Of a stretch of DNA of 40,841 bases, positions 34,486 through 40,568 are shown piece by piece. Origin of the DNA: Planctomycetota bacterium. GTDB lineage: Bacteria > Planctomycetota > B15-G4 > JADJEK01. The stretch spans positions 69,704-110,544 of the forward strand of contig JACQZJ010000028.1 of the NCBI GenBank assembly GCA_016213895.1, read 5' to 3'. The notes beneath the pieces were generated by a model. It was not told the origin of the DNA. It did no database searches and saw only the letters and a list, made by a program, of their open reading frames with translations. Position numbers and translations under genes: made by a program. The stretch's first letter is position 1. Each line of letters opens with the position of its first letter.

Positions 34486-36276
34486 TCACTCGGGGACGCG
34501 CACGTAGTCGATGCCGAACATGTAGTTCTTGGGCGCGGCCAGGTCGTTCGTGCCGACGATGCTGACGACCATCTCGTTCTCGCCCGCGGAGAGAGGCACG
34601 TCCTCGAAGACGCGCTCCTCGTCCGGCAGGACGCTCTCCGCGTAGAGGTCGATCTCCTCGGCCAGGACCTTGCCGTTGACCTCGAGGCGCACCACGCCGT
34701 AGTCGGGAGCGCGCGTGAGGCGCAGGACCAGGCGCCTGCTGCCGCCGGCCGGCGAGACGAAGCGCAGGCGGAGCTCGTCGCCGGGCGCGGCGTCGCGCCA
34801 CCAGAGGTGCGCGTCGCGGCTGAAGCCCTCGGCGAAGCCGAGGTCCTGCGGCTCGGCAACGCCCGCGCTGATGGCGGCCACGGTGAAGGACTCGCCCTCG
34901 ATCGCACCCTTGACCGCCGCGAACTCCGGCAGCGGCAGCACGGCGCGCTCCTCGAGGCCTGGGGGCGCGAAGTCGTGCGTCGACCCGGGCGCGGCGTACC
35001 AGTAGGCGACCGTGCTGTAGCCCATGCTCGTCTCGGCCCAGTGCCAGACCTCGAGGTCGAAGCGCAGCGACTCGCTGAACGGGATGTCGTCGAGCACGTG
35101 GAAGCGGGACACGGCGCAGCAGCCGAAGTTGGCCGGACCGTCGGCGCGCGACTGGCTGTGGTAGGGGGCTTCGAACAAGGCCGTGTTGCACCAGGCGTAG
35201 CCGAAGTAGTCCTCGGTGCCGGTGCCGAAGGTGCTGGGGAACTCCTCGCCGTCGACGTAGACCTTCTCGTCCCCCTCGCCCCACCAAGCCTTCACCGGAT
35301 TGCGCACGGCCAGGGCGCAGCCCACGAACCGGCCCGTGCCCGTGGCGTTGAGCACCGGCCAGTCGCTCATCGGGCGCGTGGCGAGAGCGTTCGAGCCGCG
35401 CCACCAGGCGAAGAAGCGCAGCGGCCGTTCGCCGGCCTCGGTCCAGAGGCGCACGCTCGCGTCCACGTCGATCTCGAGGGTGCGCGCGTAGGGCATGGGG
35501 AAGTTGCAGTAGCCCACGCCGTCGCCGGTCATGCCGATGGGCAGTGTCTCGTGCGCGTTCACGCCCGGAGCGCTGCCGAAGAAGTCGCCGAGGGGGCAGC
35601 AGACGCACAGCTCGCCGTCGGCCAGGATGCGCAGCATCCTGGCGCGCAGCCCCTGCGCGTCTTGCGGCAGGTCGATCTCCAGGCGCCGGACGATGCCGGG
35701 CCCGGCCAGCGCGTGCTCCGTGGTCGGCTCGCCGGGGGGCATCACGCGGAGCTCCGGGAGCGGCGGCGCGCGGTCCTGCGACCAGGTCTCGACGCGGGTC
35801 CCGGGAGCGTAGGTGCGGTAGTTCACGTGGAAGTACTGTCCGCCCTCGGAGCAGGTCACCTTCATCCTCTTGGCGTAAGAAAAGGGGTAGTAGAGGTTGC
35901 CGCCGCGGCTTCGCATGGCGCCGAAAGGCGGCGGAAAGGCGGCCGCCTCGCCGGAGAGGAGCGCCCTGAAGTCTTCTTCCAGCGCCACGCGCCCGTCCAG
36001 GTGGATGCGCAGCGTGCCCGCGGGATTGGCGGACCAGATGCGCACGATGGCCCCCGGGCCCTCGGCTTCGGCGAGCACGAAGGCGCCCTCCTCCTGGCGC
36101 AGGTAGTTGCCGCAGTCGCCGTTGGCGAACCAGTTGTCCGCGTCGTGGCTCCCCCTGTCGTAGGAGGAGAACTGCCGGCAGACGTAGTTCGCGGGCCGGG
36201 TCAGGCGGTCCAGATCGACCATTTCCTCGAGCATGAGGCGCACGGTCACATCGAGCAGCAACGCGGCGATCAACAT
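34486..36276 (-). CDS. DUF2961 / GH172 family glycosidase
   Basis: A 596-residue protein with the double jelly-roll of GH172 (DUF2961), the family of difructose dianhydride synthase/hydrolase and D-arabinan-acting enzymes. Marks are CRQFSSYDRGSHDADNWFANGDCGNYLR, GAIVRIWSANPAGTLRIHLDG, NLYYPFSYAKRMKVTC, WWGEGDEKVYVDGEEFPSTFGTGTEDYFGYAWCN and DDIPFSESLRFDLEVWHW. Glu334 and Glu355 lie 21 residues apart, as do the reported acid/base and nucleophile Glu270/Glu291 of the bifidobacterial enzyme. A C-terminal beta-sandwich (ENEMVVSIVGTNDLAAPKNYMFGIDYVRV) may bind carbohydrate. The N-terminal MLIAALLLDVTVRLML is weakly hydrophobic and not a clear signal peptide; an internal ATG before VDLDRLTRPAN is also possible. 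GAGGT precedes the chosen ATG. It is likely to act on furanosidic glycans. It is convergent with the Mo-subunit gene. Confidence 0.85.
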   Translation of the reverse strand: MLIAALLLDVTVRLMLEEMVDLDRLTRPANYVCRQFSSYDRGSHDADNWFANGDCGNYLRQEEGAFVLAEAEGPGAIVRIWSANPAGTLRIHLDGRVALEEDFRALLSGEAAAFPPPFGAMRSRGGNLYYPFSYAKRMKVTCSEGGQYFHVNYRTYAPGTRVETWSQDRAPPLPELRVMPPGEPTTEHALAGPGIVRRLEIDLPQDAQGLRARMLRILADGELCVCCPLGDFFGSAPGVNAHETLPIGMTGDGVGYCNFPMPYARTLEIDVDASVRLWTEAGERPLRFFAWWRGSNALATRPMSDWPVLNATGTGRFVGCALAVRNPVKAWWGEGDEKVYVDGEEFPSTFGTGTEDYFGYAWCNTALFEAPYHSQSRADGPANFGCCAVSRFHVLDDIPFSESLRFDLEVWHWAETSMGYSTVAYWYAAPGSTHDFAPPGLEERAVLPLPEFAAVKGAIEGESFTVAAISAGVAEPQDLGFAEGFSRDAHLWWRDAAPGDELRLRFVSPAGGSRRLVLRLTRAPDYGVVRLEVNGKVLAEEIDLYAESVLPDEERVFEDVPLSAGENEMVVSIVGTNDLAAPKNYMFGIDYVRVPE

Positions 36277-36507
36277 CGGTTCGACCTCGACATCTTCGCG
36301 GAGTGCCCGCGCCGCCGCCCGGCGGCCGGGGACGCTCTCGCGCCGCAGACCATACCCGGAGAAGGCGGCTGCGCGCCACGGCTCGTGGCAGGCGGCCGGA
36401 AAAGGAACGCGAGCCGCACGACGGTCGTCGCGTGGCTCGCGGTCAGGTTCGTTCCTTGCGCGCCGGAACCGGTCGTCAGCGGCCGGGACCGGTCGCGCAC
36501 GAGGCGA

Positions 36508-36627
36508 CTAGCAGCGGCGCGCCTTGGCCTTCTTCTTGGTGGCCTTCTTCTTCGCCACCTTCTTCGTGGCCTTCTTCTTGGTCACCTTCTTCTTCGTCGC
36601 CTTCTTCTTGGTTCTCCTTGCCGCCAT
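36508..36627 (-). CDS. Very small Lys/Ala-rich histone H1-like basic protein (39 residues)
   Basis: A short gene easily missed. It reads MAARRTKKKATKKKVTKKK and then further KATKK/VAKKK units, ending KAKARRC and TAG. About half the residues are Lys, spaced by Ala, Thr and Val like the C-terminal tail of histone H1 and the chlamydial Hc1/Hc2 or HupB tails that bind DNA non-specifically. A very good ribosome binding site, GGAGGGG (36635-36641), sits seven bases before the ATG, which argues for a real gene rather than a low-complexity stretch. The leader carries a hairpin and, further up, a TCGACA-N5-TGTCGA dyad. It probably coats or condenses DNA or RNA; no enzyme role is possible. The terminal Cys is notable. 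Confidence 0.7.
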   Translation of the reverse strand: MAARRTKKKATKKKVTKKKATKKVAKKKATKKKAKARRC

Positions 36628-36659
36628 TTCGAAACCCCTCCAGGAGTTGAAACCAGTTT

Positions 36660-36684
36660 GTCAGAGCGCACAGCGCGCGCTGAC
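36660..36684. terminator. Imperfect hairpin in the leader of the Lys-rich gene / after hsp20
   Basis: GTCAGAGCGC (36660-36669) and GCGCGCTGAC (36675-36684) pair at 9 of 10 positions around a 5-base loop. Read leftward it lies 140 bases beyond the hsp20 stop and 33 bases before the Lys-rich start, so it could end the upstream transcript or be a leader structure. Confidence 0.3.
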
Positions 36685-36703
36685 TGTCAGGAGAATGACT
36701 AAT

Positions 36704-36720
36704 TCGACACAAGATGTCGA
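36704..36720. promoter_or_regulatory. TCGACA-N5-TGTCGA dyad, candidate operator
   Basis: A perfect 6-5-6 inverted repeat (36704-36709 and 36715-36720), 77-93 bases upstream of the start of the Lys-rich gene in an AT-richer patch. The size and symmetry suit binding by a small dimeric regulator. Neither the regulator nor a flanking promoter could be identified. Confidence 0.35.
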
Positions 36721-36823
36721 GTCGCTAGAGGATTTTTCGCTTGCAGCGCTCGACACGCGGACGCCGGGCGGAAACACGCGGCGGTCTCGCCGCGACCACG
36801 CGTGCGCGGCAGAACCGGCGAGA

Positions 36824-37294
36824 TCACTTCTCGCCGGCGGGAGCGCCCTTCACCTCGATCTTGCGCGGCTGCGCGGACGCGGCCTTGCGGACCTTCACGC
36901 GCAGCACGCCGTCCTTCAGGGTTGCTTCGACGTTGTCCCGGTCGATGTCGCGGGGCAGCGGAATCACGCGCACGAAGGAGCCCTGGCGGCGCTCCCAGCG
37001 GTACCAGGACACCTCGGCGCAGCACTCCTCGCGGCGGCGTGCGCCGCGCAGGACGAGGCTGTCCTCGTGGACCAGCACCTCGACATCCTCCATGGAGAAG
37101 CCAGGGAGGTCGGCCTCGACGTAGACGTGCTGGTCATCCTGCCAGGCGTCGACGCTGGGCGCGTACGCGGCCGTGCCGGCGACCCTGGGCCGCGCCCAGT
37201 CCGCCGTCGTGTCATCCAGCAGGTCCGCGGCGCCGCCGTTCGCGCGCGCGAAATGGAGGTAGGGGAGCACGCTGTCACAGCGATGCATGAACAT
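36824..37294 (-). CDS. Hsp20 / alpha-crystallin family small heat-shock protein
   Basis: A 156-residue ATP-independent chaperone that holds unfolding proteins. The alpha-crystallin domain spans about residues 45-150: APSVDAWQDDQHVYVEADLPGFSMEDVEVLVHEDSLVLRGARR, then SFVRVIPLPRDIDRDNVEATLKDGVLRVKVRKA. The A-x-x-x-n-G-v-L motif (ATLKDGVL) is intact. The C-terminal IxI anchor is only approximated by IEV (RKIEVK). The N-terminal arm is short and contains two Cys in the domain loop (EECCAEVSWYRW), which is unusual. GAGGAGA lies seven bases before the first ATG; a second ATG is two codons in. It is preceded by a weak heat-shock-type promoter match. The upstream DsrE gene is on the same strand 164 bases away. 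Confidence 0.92.
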   Translation of the reverse strand: MFMHRCDSVLPYLHFARANGGAADLLDDTTADWARPRVAGTAAYAPSVDAWQDDQHVYVEADLPGFSMEDVEVLVHEDSLVLRGARRREECCAEVSWYRWERRQGSFVRVIPLPRDIDRDNVEATLKDGVLRVKVRKAASAQPRKIEVKGAPAGEK

Positions 37295-37318
37295 GGGTTA
37301 TTCTCCTCGAGTTGGCGT

Positions 37319-37346
37319 TCATCGGGTTCGATTCGCGGGCTTCACG
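37319..37346 (-). promoter_or_regulatory. Weak sigma-32-like promoter match upstream of hsp20
   Basis: On the minus strand CGTGAA (37341-37346), a 14-base spacer, then CCCGATGA (37319-37326) resembles the heat-shock consensus CTTGAA-N13-17-CCCCATNT. It would place the start site about 20 bases before the hsp20 ATG. No CIRCE element is seen. The match is partial, so this is only a candidate. Confidence 0.25.
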
Positions 37347-37458
37347 GGCCGCACGGATCGAGGCTGCGGTCGGGTCGGCCCCGGCCGCCAGCCCCCTGCT
37401 GATAGCACGCCTTGTTCCGGCCGCCCACCCCGGTGCGGGACTGAGCGCCGCGCTTCCC

Positions 37459-37806
37459 TCACACGGTGATCACCTTGTCGGCCTGGTCGAGCTCCCGCAC
37501 CACGTCCGGCAGCCCGCCGATCTCGCCGACCGCGACCTTGTCCATGAGCCCGTAGCGCATGAGGCAGGTCTGGCAGGAGAGGATGCGCACGCCCATACCC
37601 TCCAGCAGACGCAGCCCGAGCACGTGCTGCGAGCCCTGGCACACGGCGCGCACCCCCTCGGTGTAGAAGCAGATCGCCCGCGGCTTCTCGGGCTCCTTCT
37701 CCATGGTGTGGAACAGCTTTTCGAGCATCAGCAGGCCGAAGTCCTCGTCCTCGGGGCGAGTGATTCCGAGGCCGTTCCGCGTCACGAGAATGACCGTGTC
37801 TTTCAT
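37459..37806 (-). CDS. DsrE-like protein related to the C-terminal domain of YedF
   Basis: A 115-residue DsrE/DsrF/TusD-fold protein. Its pattern (ITRPEDEDFGLLMLEKLFHTM, PRAICFYTEGVRAVCQGS, LEGMGVRILSCQTCLMRYGLMDKVAVGEIGG) matches the C-terminal half of YedF, a protein linked in many anaerobes to selenium metabolism. In YedF a TusA-like domain precedes this part; here it is absent. Cys78 and Cys81 in SCQTCL are the likely persulfide-carrying thiols, and Cys46 and Cys56 are additional. It probably relays sulfur (or selenium) or acts as a small thiol sensor; the partner is unknown. GGAGT precedes the ATG. No selD, selA or tusA gene is in the window. Confidence 0.78.
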   Translation of the reverse strand: MKDTVILVTRNGLGITRPEDEDFGLLMLEKLFHTMEKEPEKPRAICFYTEGVRAVCQGSQHVLGLRLLEGMGVRILSCQTCLMRYGLMDKVAVGEIGGLPDVVRELDQADKVITV

Positions 37807-37907: not shown

Positions 37908-38600
37908 TCAGCCCCGCAGGCGCGCCAGCACTTCGGCGAAGTCGGCGGGCGGGTCGGCTCGCACGGTCAGACGCTGGCCGCTCGCGGGATGCGGGAAGGT
38001 CAAGGCCGCGGCGTGCAGGAGCGGGCGGCCGTGGCGCAGCGCGAGACGGGACGCGACCGCGTACTTGCGTTCGCCGACCAGCGGGCAGCCGATGCCCGCG
38101 AGATGCACGCGGATCTGGTTGAAGCGGCCGGTCTCGGGAACGGCCTCGACGAGCGCGGCCTGCGCGAAACGTTCCACCACGCGGTAGCGCGTGATCGCCA
38201 GCTTGCCGGCGCGCACGGGCGCAGGGCTCGAGCGCGCCATGCTGCCCTGCTCGACGATGTACGTCTTGATCGTCCCGCCCGGCCGGCGGGGGTGGCCGTT
38301 CACCAGCGCGAGGTAGAGCTTCTGCACCGCGCGCTCGCGAAACGCGCGCTCCAGGGCCTCCCTCGCCGCGACGCTGCGCGCGAAGAGCAGCACGCCCGAC
38401 GTGTCGCGGTCGAGGCGGTGCACCGCGAAGAGCATTTCCCCCCTGGCTTCCGCCTGGCGCCGCAGGCGATCGGCGACGTTGCGCTCACCGCCGCCCGCGG
38501 TCGGCACGCTCAGGATGCCGGGCGGCTTGTCGATCGCGAGGACGTGGGGATCCGCGAAGAGGACGGGCAGGGAGACATCGGCCGGCTCGCGCTTCTTCAT
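37908..38600 (-). CDS. RluA-family RNA pseudouridine synthase
   Basis: A 230-residue pseudouridine synthase that isomerises uridine in rRNA or tRNA. The start of the catalytic core is VLAIDKPPGILSVPT. The active-site motif is FAVHRLDRDTSGVLLFA, with Asp64 as the nucleophile. QKLYLALVNGHP, PETGRFNQIRVHLAGIGCPLVGERKY (motif III with RxNQIRVHLA) and HAAALTFPHP complete the family signature. There is no N-terminal S4 domain, so it is a compact form (RluA/TruC-like); the target base cannot be read. The ATG is chosen because ATGA (38597-38600) overlaps the stop of the membrane-protein gene upstream, implying coupled translation. Confidence 0.9.
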   Translation of the reverse strand: MKKREPADVSLPVLFADPHVLAIDKPPGILSVPTAGGGERNVADRLRRQAEARGEMLFAVHRLDRDTSGVLLFARSVAAREALERAFRERAVQKLYLALVNGHPRRPGGTIKTYIVEQGSMARSSPAPVRAGKLAITRYRVVERFAQAALVEAVPETGRFNQIRVHLAGIGCPLVGERKYAVASRLALRHGRPLLHAAALTFPHPASGQRLTVRADPPADFAEVLARLRG

Positions 38601-39641: not shown

Positions 39642-40046
39642 ATGAATGAGATGAAGCCCAGCGAGACGGTCATCGGCGCGGATGCGTTCATCAAGGGCGA
39701 GATGACGGTGGAGTCCCGGGCGCGCATCCTCGGCAAGGTCGAGGGCACGATCCGCGCGAAGGGCCAGATCGAGGTCGCGGACAAGGGGCGCTGCGTGGCG
39801 TCCGTCAACGCCGGGCTGATCCACGTGGACGGCTCCATCGAGGGGAACGTCACCGCCAGCGAGAAGGTCGAACTCAGCGCCACGGCGCGGGTCAAGGGAG
39901 ACCTGGTGGCGCCGAAGCTGGTCGTGGCCGAGGGCGCTTCCTTCACCGGGCACGTGAACGTCGGCCCGGACGCGGCCAAGACCGCGCCTCCGGCCGGCCG
40001 GCAGCCGCCGGCGCCCGAGACCCCCCCGCCCGCGCAGAAGAAGTAG
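39642..40046 (+). CDS. Bactofilin
   Basis: A 134-residue bactofilin, a self-assembling cytoskeletal protein that forms filaments without nucleotide. The polymerising right-handed beta-helix spans about residues 8-105, with six-residue rungs: TVIGADAFIKGEMTVESRARILGKVEGTIRAKGQIEVADKGRCVASVNAGLIHVDGSIEGNVTAS. It is followed by a Pro/Ala-rich, charged tail (PPAGRQPPAPETPPPAQKK) typical of the disordered end. GGGAGA lies a few bases before the ATG. It is followed 69 bases later by a second, zinc-ribbon bactofilin-like gene, and the two probably act together in cell-shape or envelope organisation. Confidence 0.9.
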   Translation: MNEMKPSETVIGADAFIKGEMTVESRARILGKVEGTIRAKGQIEVADKGRCVASVNAGLIHVDGSIEGNVTASEKVELSATARVKGDLVAPKLVVAEGASFTGHVNVGPDAAKTAPPAGRQPPAPETPPPAQKK

Positions 40047-40115: not shown

Positions 40116-40568
40116 ATGGCCAGGCCTGGCGGACAGCAGCGGATCTACTGCTACCACTGCGGCCGTCCCATCACGGTCGGAGGCCGCACCATGTCCGTGC
40201 CCTGCCCGGCGTGCAACAAGTCGGTCCTCATCGAGGACGTGGTCGTCAGCAGCTACAAGGGAGTGCTCAGCGTCGAGACCTGCGGCAAGCTGATCATCCG
40301 CCGCCGCGGGCGGGTCGTGGCGCAGCACCGCGTCGTGGCGCACGAAGGGATCGAGGTGGAGGGCGAGCTCGACTGCCGGCAGGTGCTCTCTGGCGGGCTG
40401 GTGCGCCTGGGCGCCAAGGCGGAGTGGCGCGGCGACCTGCGCGCGCCGGCCCTCGCGGTCGCCGCCGGAGCGAAGATCCGGGCCAGCCACTTCCGTGTTC
40501 CCGACGACCCGCTCGACGACCTCCGGCGGCTCGCTGCCCAGGACGAGCCGGCCGCACCGCGCGCGTGA
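40116..40568 (+). CDS. Zinc-ribbon bactofilin-like protein
   Basis: A 150-residue protein. Residues 10-34 form a zinc ribbon with Cys12, Cys15, Cys30 and Cys33 (YCYHCGRPI ... VPCPACNK). Residues 45-130 carry the short hydrophobic/Gly rungs of a bactofilin-type beta-helix (LSVETCGKLIIRRRGRVVAQHRVVAHEGIEVEGELDCRQVLSGGLVRLGAKAEWRGDLRAPALAVAAGAKI). The tail is acidic/Pro-rich. The ribbon may tether the filament to a nucleic acid or protein partner. It follows the classical bactofilin gene on the same strand, suggesting co-expression. The homology is by pattern and the alternative is a generic beta-helix zinc protein. Confidence 0.72.
   Translation: MARPGGQQRIYCYHCGRPITVGGRTMSVPCPACNKSVLIEDVVVSSYKGVLSVETCGKLIIRRRGRVVAQHRVVAHEGIEVEGELDCRQVLSGGLVRLGAKAEWRGDLRAPALAVAAGAKIRASHFRVPDDPLDDLRRLAAQDEPAAPRA

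Follow-up and report, generated by a model that had tools for sequence, protein, structure and literature searches.

A 39-residue, lysine-rich open reading frame in the window (the whole stretch of 40,841 nucleotides of Planctomycetota DNA analyzed here) is, judging from its conservation at sequence level, very probably a genuine gene that relatives have retained. Proteins of 21 to 40 residues in which K, R, A, T, V and G make up nearly the whole sequence match no family model, yet one place for such a gene is kept order-wide, and this pattern, found at tadA, is the more interesting part of the finding.

The lysine-rich frame and its retention in relatives

The features of the locus are as follows (positions in the window).
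36508 to 36627, minus strand: 39-residue lysine-rich frame, an open reading frame kept in the sister species, with a counterpart in a second genus (G003)
36635 to 36641, minus strand: ribosome site GGAGGGG, 7 bases before the ATG, unchanged in the sister species
36628 to 36749, minus strand: conserved leader of 122 bases, with 3 differences from the sister species
36704 to 36720, no strand: exact dyad TCGACA-N5-TGTCGA, 77 to 93 bases before the start
36692 to 36721, minus strand: promoter-like CTCGACA-N15-GTCAT, a putative promoter, common to the G003 counterpart
36720 to 36715 and 36697 to 36692, minus strand: TCGACA and CATTCT, the parts of the promoter-like element, with 17 bases between them
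36400 to 36440, minus strand: terminator-like hairpin followed by GTTCCTTTT (fold z -2.94 for 36390-36460), kept in the sister species
34486 to 36276, minus strand: DUF2961 gene, downstream neighbor
36824 to 37294, minus strand: hsp20 gene, neighbor (PF00011)
37459 to 37806, minus strand: DsrE/YedF-like gene, neighbor
37908 to 38591, minus strand: rluA-type RNA pseudouridine synthase gene (PF00849), preceding the microgene in the genome of the window (G000), its sister species (G001) and G003

The frame runs from an ATG at 36627-36625 to a TAG at 36510-36508, and its product, MAARRTKKKATKKKVTKKKATKKVAKKKATKKKAKARRC, is almost wholly lysine, alanine, threonine and arginine, with 22 basic residues among 39 (18 Lys and 4 Arg) and no acidic ones; such a polycation is expected to be disordered. 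G+C at codon positions 1, 2 and 3 is 31, 46 and 95%, respectively. The frame is more than chance, because codons that spell KK(A/V)TKK have six occurrences genome-wide, always inside this frame or a 34-residue frame elsewhere in G000, while the reversed control is found nowhere in the genome. The lysine-rich frame, its KATKK-type repeats and the GGAGGGG site seven bases upstream had all been described in an earlier note on this DNA, and each was confirmed. The label "H1-like" given there holds for composition, since the Lys/Ala/Thr-rich pentads and the lack of acidic residues that describe the H1-tail-like lysine-rich group are both present, but does not extend to a match with any family model.

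Searches of Pfam, NCBIfam and PHROGs, with HU, Hc1 and others included, returned no family for the 39-residue protein at E values up to 1, nor did a PDB sequence search at the same limit. The HC2 family (PF07382) was likewise not matched, as the 39-residue protein, its G001 counterpart and the 34-residue protein hit no Pfam family at E values up to 1. Among seven other stand-alone proteins scanned, only a 130-residue protein of genome G029 came near HC2 (E 5.8e-4, 20.4 bits, below the cut-off of 40). We therefore do not file the 39-residue protein as HC2, despite its H1-tail-like build. A search of open-access papers showed none that deals with this locus or with comparable microproteins in Planctomycetota. 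KATKK-type tails or heads also occur on longer proteins across the phylum, among them some that by eye are TopA- and DksA-like (L016-L045, L111-L122 and L128-L136). In genome G031, six contigs begin or end inside KATKK-coding repeats (L109-L112, L026 and L114); genes with such repeats may break assemblies and be undercounted.

In G001, the counterpart has 42 residues owing to an in-frame 12-base insertion, i.e., one extra four-residue unit. The two microproteins differ by three substitutions in 38 aligned codons, all of them K/R swaps, and the last Cys codon of the 39-residue frame is a stop in G001. Gene order (rluA-type, dsrE, hsp20, microgene, DUF2961) is identical in both genomes, and the terminator-like hairpin has a G-U pair changed to G-C in G001, with GTTCCTTTT following in both. 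Elsewhere in the window, two adjacent open frames on the plus strand (39642-40046 and 40116-40568) are by eye of bactofilin type.

A more distant counterpart was found in G003, which belongs to another genus of the same family: a 25-residue frame, MAVAKKAKKAPKKAAKKAAKKAKKK, with a ribosome site, lies after an rluA-type gene; the products of this gene and of its equivalent in the window share 54% identity. The likeness of the G003 leader to that of the window was first spotted by eye and then tested by script, giving an alignment score of 31 that none of 500 mononucleotide shuffles reached (maximum, 29). The fourth genome of the family, G002 (960 contigs), had no counterpart at the 12 K-rich places read. 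Across G002, G003, G005, G007 and G011, 20 K-rich places held no other stand-alone gene of this kind.

The earlier note had proposed a genuine microprotein and had named loss of the frame or of the ribosome site in relatives as grounds for rejecting it. Both are kept in the sister species, and the proposal is well supported by the frame, ribosome site, leader and terminator retained there and by the G003 counterpart with its related leader. The hsp20 and GH172 genes suggested as anchors for finding relatives serve only within the genus as far as seen; the neighbor in common with G003 is the rluA-type gene.

The leader, the dyad and a promoter-like element

The leader is more conserved than its surroundings. 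At fourfold-degenerate sites of five genes, three beside the 39-residue gene and two beside the 34-residue gene, 126 of 640 positions (20%) differ between G000 and G001; three or fewer differences in 122 leader bases have a probability of ~1e-8 at that rate and of 0.0016 at half of it. A BLAST search over 294 genomes matched the leader in G000 and G001 only. Together with the ribosome site and terminator, the leader has the features expected of a monocistronic gene, which would be transcribed on its own.

The perfect dyad had been presented as operator-like, and its sequence and position are exact. It occurs once in the 5.5-Mb genome of G000 and once in G001; by simple arithmetic, a genome of 5.5 Mb should contain ~0.33 exact copies, so the dyad is not striking by itself, and what is striking is its place inside a conserved leader. 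It is missing from the leader of G003, where the CTCGACA half alone remains, at the same spacing to GTCAT, which would suit a -35/-10 pair. A dedicated operator should stand before other genes or be conserved with its gene; the dyad has one exact site per genome and is kept in G001 and absent in G003, making the proposed operator role doubtful. A wider role as the mark of a regulon was ruled out on exact sites, of which G000 and G001 have one each.

Since G003 keeps CTCGACA-N15-GTCAT without the dyad, TCGACA is more likely to be the -35 element of a promoter than half of an old operator. In ~1.04 Mb of fetched loci (overlaps included), CTCGACA-N15-GTCAT, which the window and G003 leaders have in common, was found only before the microgene in G000, G001 and G003. 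The candidate -10 element, 17 bases after TCGACA, is CATTCT or CATCTT, a poor fit to TATAAT, which the former matches at only three of six positions. A strict sigma-70 scan of 36200-37500 found nothing, and the looser TCGACA-N16/18-CATYYT had one further match, in a flagellin locus (L225). For a sigma-28/WhiG-type element, the best match before the window gene was 7 of 12 positions, no higher than the shuffle mean, and RCCGAT is absent there.

A second lysine-rich gene beside tRNA-Arg(ACG) and tadA

In G000 and G001, the 34-residue lysine-rich frame adjoins tRNA-Arg(ACG), the tRNA edited by TadA, and tadA itself; an rlmI-like gene flanks the frame opposite these. The two copies are identical at every base, with none of 14 fourfold sites differing (P ~0.05); the neighboring proteins at these loci (L002 and L006) are only 88% identical between the two species. 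Searching for TadA yielded matches in 12 of the 14 genomes of the order, and in all 12 a Lys/Arg-rich frame with a ribosome site follows tRNA-Arg(ACG), directed away from tadA. The predicted products have 21 (G005), 25 (G007 and G011), 34 (G000 and G001), 79 (G012), 101 (G009), 105 (G008), 117 (G004 and G006), 124 (G010) or 135 (G013) residues. The two genomes that lack a TadA match, G002 and G003, are more fragmented than the others in the order, and a second, weaker TadA match in G004 (L175) has no such frame. At L163-L174, tRNA-Ser(GGA), tRNA-Ser(CGA), tadA and tRNA-Arg(ACG) are grouped, followed by the divergent Lys/Arg-rich gene of 21 to 135 residues.

Outside the order, none of 26 tadA loci (the best 26 of 95 genomes with a match) has such a gene; four gave weak flags that are by eye unrelated frames, and seven end at a contig edge. 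In eight of these 26, tRNA-Arg(ACG) lies beside tadA. Common descent of the 39- and 34-residue genes is not demonstrable, because low-complexity DNA matches the tail of a long protein equally well: in a DNA search, such a tail in G010 scored 104 bits and the 34-residue gene 96 bits.

The tadA-side genes share an upstream element. RCCGAT lies 59 to 75 bases before the start in all 12, and T[ACT][AC]A-N15/16-RCCGAT fits all 12 as well. This pattern was derived from the same 12 upstream regions, and its counts are descriptive: the 12 tadA loci (82,528 bases, both strands counted) contain 13 occurrences, 12 of them before the tadA-side genes, compared with seven in the 450,270 bases of 62 control loci. 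One of those seven (L115) is the G004 gene, leaving six in 443,268 bases of true controls. One of these six (L117, minus strand) lies ~110 bases before the 130-residue stand-alone H1-like gene of G029, a genome outside the order.

The element resembles FliA/WhiG (sigma-28) promoters, which, with its chlamydial parallel, is a lead rather than a result. The published sigma-28 consensus is TAAA-N15-GCCGATAA, with a criterion of two mismatches at most in the text available to us (PMC8325347); three of the 12 upstream regions (G000, G001 and G007) fall within two mismatches of TAAA-N15-GCCGATAA. At three mismatches, the canonical consensus occurs 32 times in the 82,528 bases of the tadA loci versus 128 times in 450,270 bases elsewhere, rates within a factor of 1.4. 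Taken singly, five of the 12 regions (G004, G006, G008, G010 and G012) score no better than their own shuffles at the 5% level. An initial sigma-28-like pattern matched seven times in 14 genomes, the second G000 site standing before a hybrid histidine kinase gene; a G001 site has a similar look, although an alignment of the two, made in opposite orientation, carries no information.

Sigma factors of the FliA/WhiG family score above cut-off in all 14 genomes of the order, and flagellin was found in eight. One G000 member of the family adjoins flhA and flhF, and another has WhiG as its best match, though with a score under the cut-off of that model. Upstream of flagellin genes (L212, L213, L215 and L216) stands TCAA-N15 followed by NNCGAA, close to yet unlike the element before the H1-like genes, which would suit a pair of related sigma factors acting at the two kinds of gene. 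A fuller scheme would give this order of Planctomycetota a two-gene H1-tail microprotein system, with the tadA-side gene under a FliA/WhiG-type sigma factor as a signal for chromatin packing or dormancy and the window gene, by rluA, as a second copy with a housekeeping-type promoter; we offer this scheme speculatively and consider it unlikely as it stands. C. trachomatis sigma-28 is described as binding only hctB and tsp in the portion of the source available (PMC12282069). If the scheme were true, a link from sigma-28 to H1 tails would be present in two phyla of the PVC group. The element raises the question of whether chromosome packing in Planctomycetota is under the control of a FliA/WhiG-type sigma factor, in the way that chlamydial hctB depends on sigma-28.

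Possible functions and known H1-tail-like proteins

On balance, we lean towards the frame being a real gene whose product is a tiny polycation, probably disordered, that acts like the tail of histone H1 and binds nucleic acid, with chromosomal DNA as the foremost target. The polycation would bind by charge through its A-T-K-K-K-type pentads, and G000 would hold two such genes, one by the rluA-type gene, with dsrE and hsp20 between, and one by tRNA-Arg(ACG) and tadA. This set of tiny positively charged proteins probably coats DNA or RNA, and the nucleoid association put forward in the earlier note is plausible. We infer that the frame is translated, that CTCGACA-N15-GTCAT drives a separate transcript, and that the product binds nucleic acid, mainly DNA. 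DNA is put first because of the long pentad arrays of the tadA-side genes and because of precedent, in that Hc2 is described as binding DNA (PMC2848022), as are KPAA peptides of AlgP (PMC9239181), in the parts of these papers available.

RNA is a serious rival target, since the neighbors of both genes include RNA-modification genes (rluA type and tadA, plus rlmI type in G000 and G001), a setting that speaks for RNA no less than for DNA. Less probably than on DNA, the protein may act on RNA or on ribosomes (for instance on tRNA or rRNA, or in the assembly or storage of ribosomes). In favor of this, one gene follows the rluA-type pseudouridine synthase gene in three genomes and the other adjoins tRNA-Arg(ACG) and tadA in all 12 genomes with a TadA match, with the rlmI-like gene opposite in G000 and G001, and some members have just 21 to 25 residues, short for DNA packing, which counts against a DNA-coating role. 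However, tRNA genes neighbor tadA beyond this order too, with no such gene present (tRNA-Arg(ACG) does so at 8 of 26 loci), so the position may be chance history, and known H1-tail proteins bind DNA, although the available text on Hc2 also mentions RNA (PMC2848022). Alternatively, the leader itself could be the functional element, as a structured or heat-responsive RNA or a small RNA, with the short frame secondary. Its conservation above that of nearby coding DNA, the hsp20 gene upstream and a fold that 4 of 200 shuffles match (z -2.26), in which the 5' part pairs with the ribosome site, would suit such an RNA. That fold requires a start upstream of the proposed promoter, however, and Rfam has no match in the window at gathering score. 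The three differences from G001 allow no test for covariation, the frame is itself retained, and in G003 the frame, the ribosome site and the promoter-like letters persist although the leader has otherwise diverged; we consider a leader RNA quite unlikely.

Binding to polyphosphate or storage granules, in the manner of AlgP/PhaF tails, is very unlikely; the H1-like AlgP associates with polyphosphate granules (PMC9239181, in the part available), but its N-terminal domain is missing in the 39-residue protein. Low-complexity DNA without function as a gene hardly merits credence, for although tails made of AAGAAG-rich repeats are frequent on longer proteins of the phylum, the leader, ribosome site, frame and terminator are conserved here, and the place is kept in another genus.

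A small H1-tail-like polycation, the reading we favor, has several known parallels, described here as far as the available parts of the sources go. Chlamydial Hc2 (hctB) is likewise a stand-alone protein of consecutive lysine-rich pentads; it binds DNA and varies in size by repeat number (PMC2848022), but it has 165 to 237 residues and two basic residues per pentad, in contrast to 39 residues and mostly three per pentad here. Its gene is sigma-28 dependent (PMC12282069), which the tadA-side genes may resemble, whereas the window gene has no sigma-28-like element. BpH1 of Bordetella shares the consecutive lysine-rich pentads and size variation (PMC2848022) but has 182 to 206 residues in B. pertussis and belongs to another phylum, and it is likened by description only. 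The C-terminal tails of AlgP and PhaF in Pseudomonas are disordered, H1-tail-like repeats that bind DNA (PMC9239181); they have KPAA repeats and an N-terminal domain, whereas the window gene encodes a free KATKK-type tail. Lysine-rich repeats also form the tails of topoisomerase I, as in actinobacterial TopA (PMC7398561), and such tails are present on long proteins of this order that by eye pass for TopA, there as part of an enzyme and here as a free-standing gene. A nucleoid study of Gemmata, in its available text, reports no histone homologue and names two divergent HU sequences as candidate packing proteins (PMC3440768); microgenes of the sort described here would be further candidates in Planctomycetota. 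The 39-residue gene is an unusually small example of a kind that is known in general.
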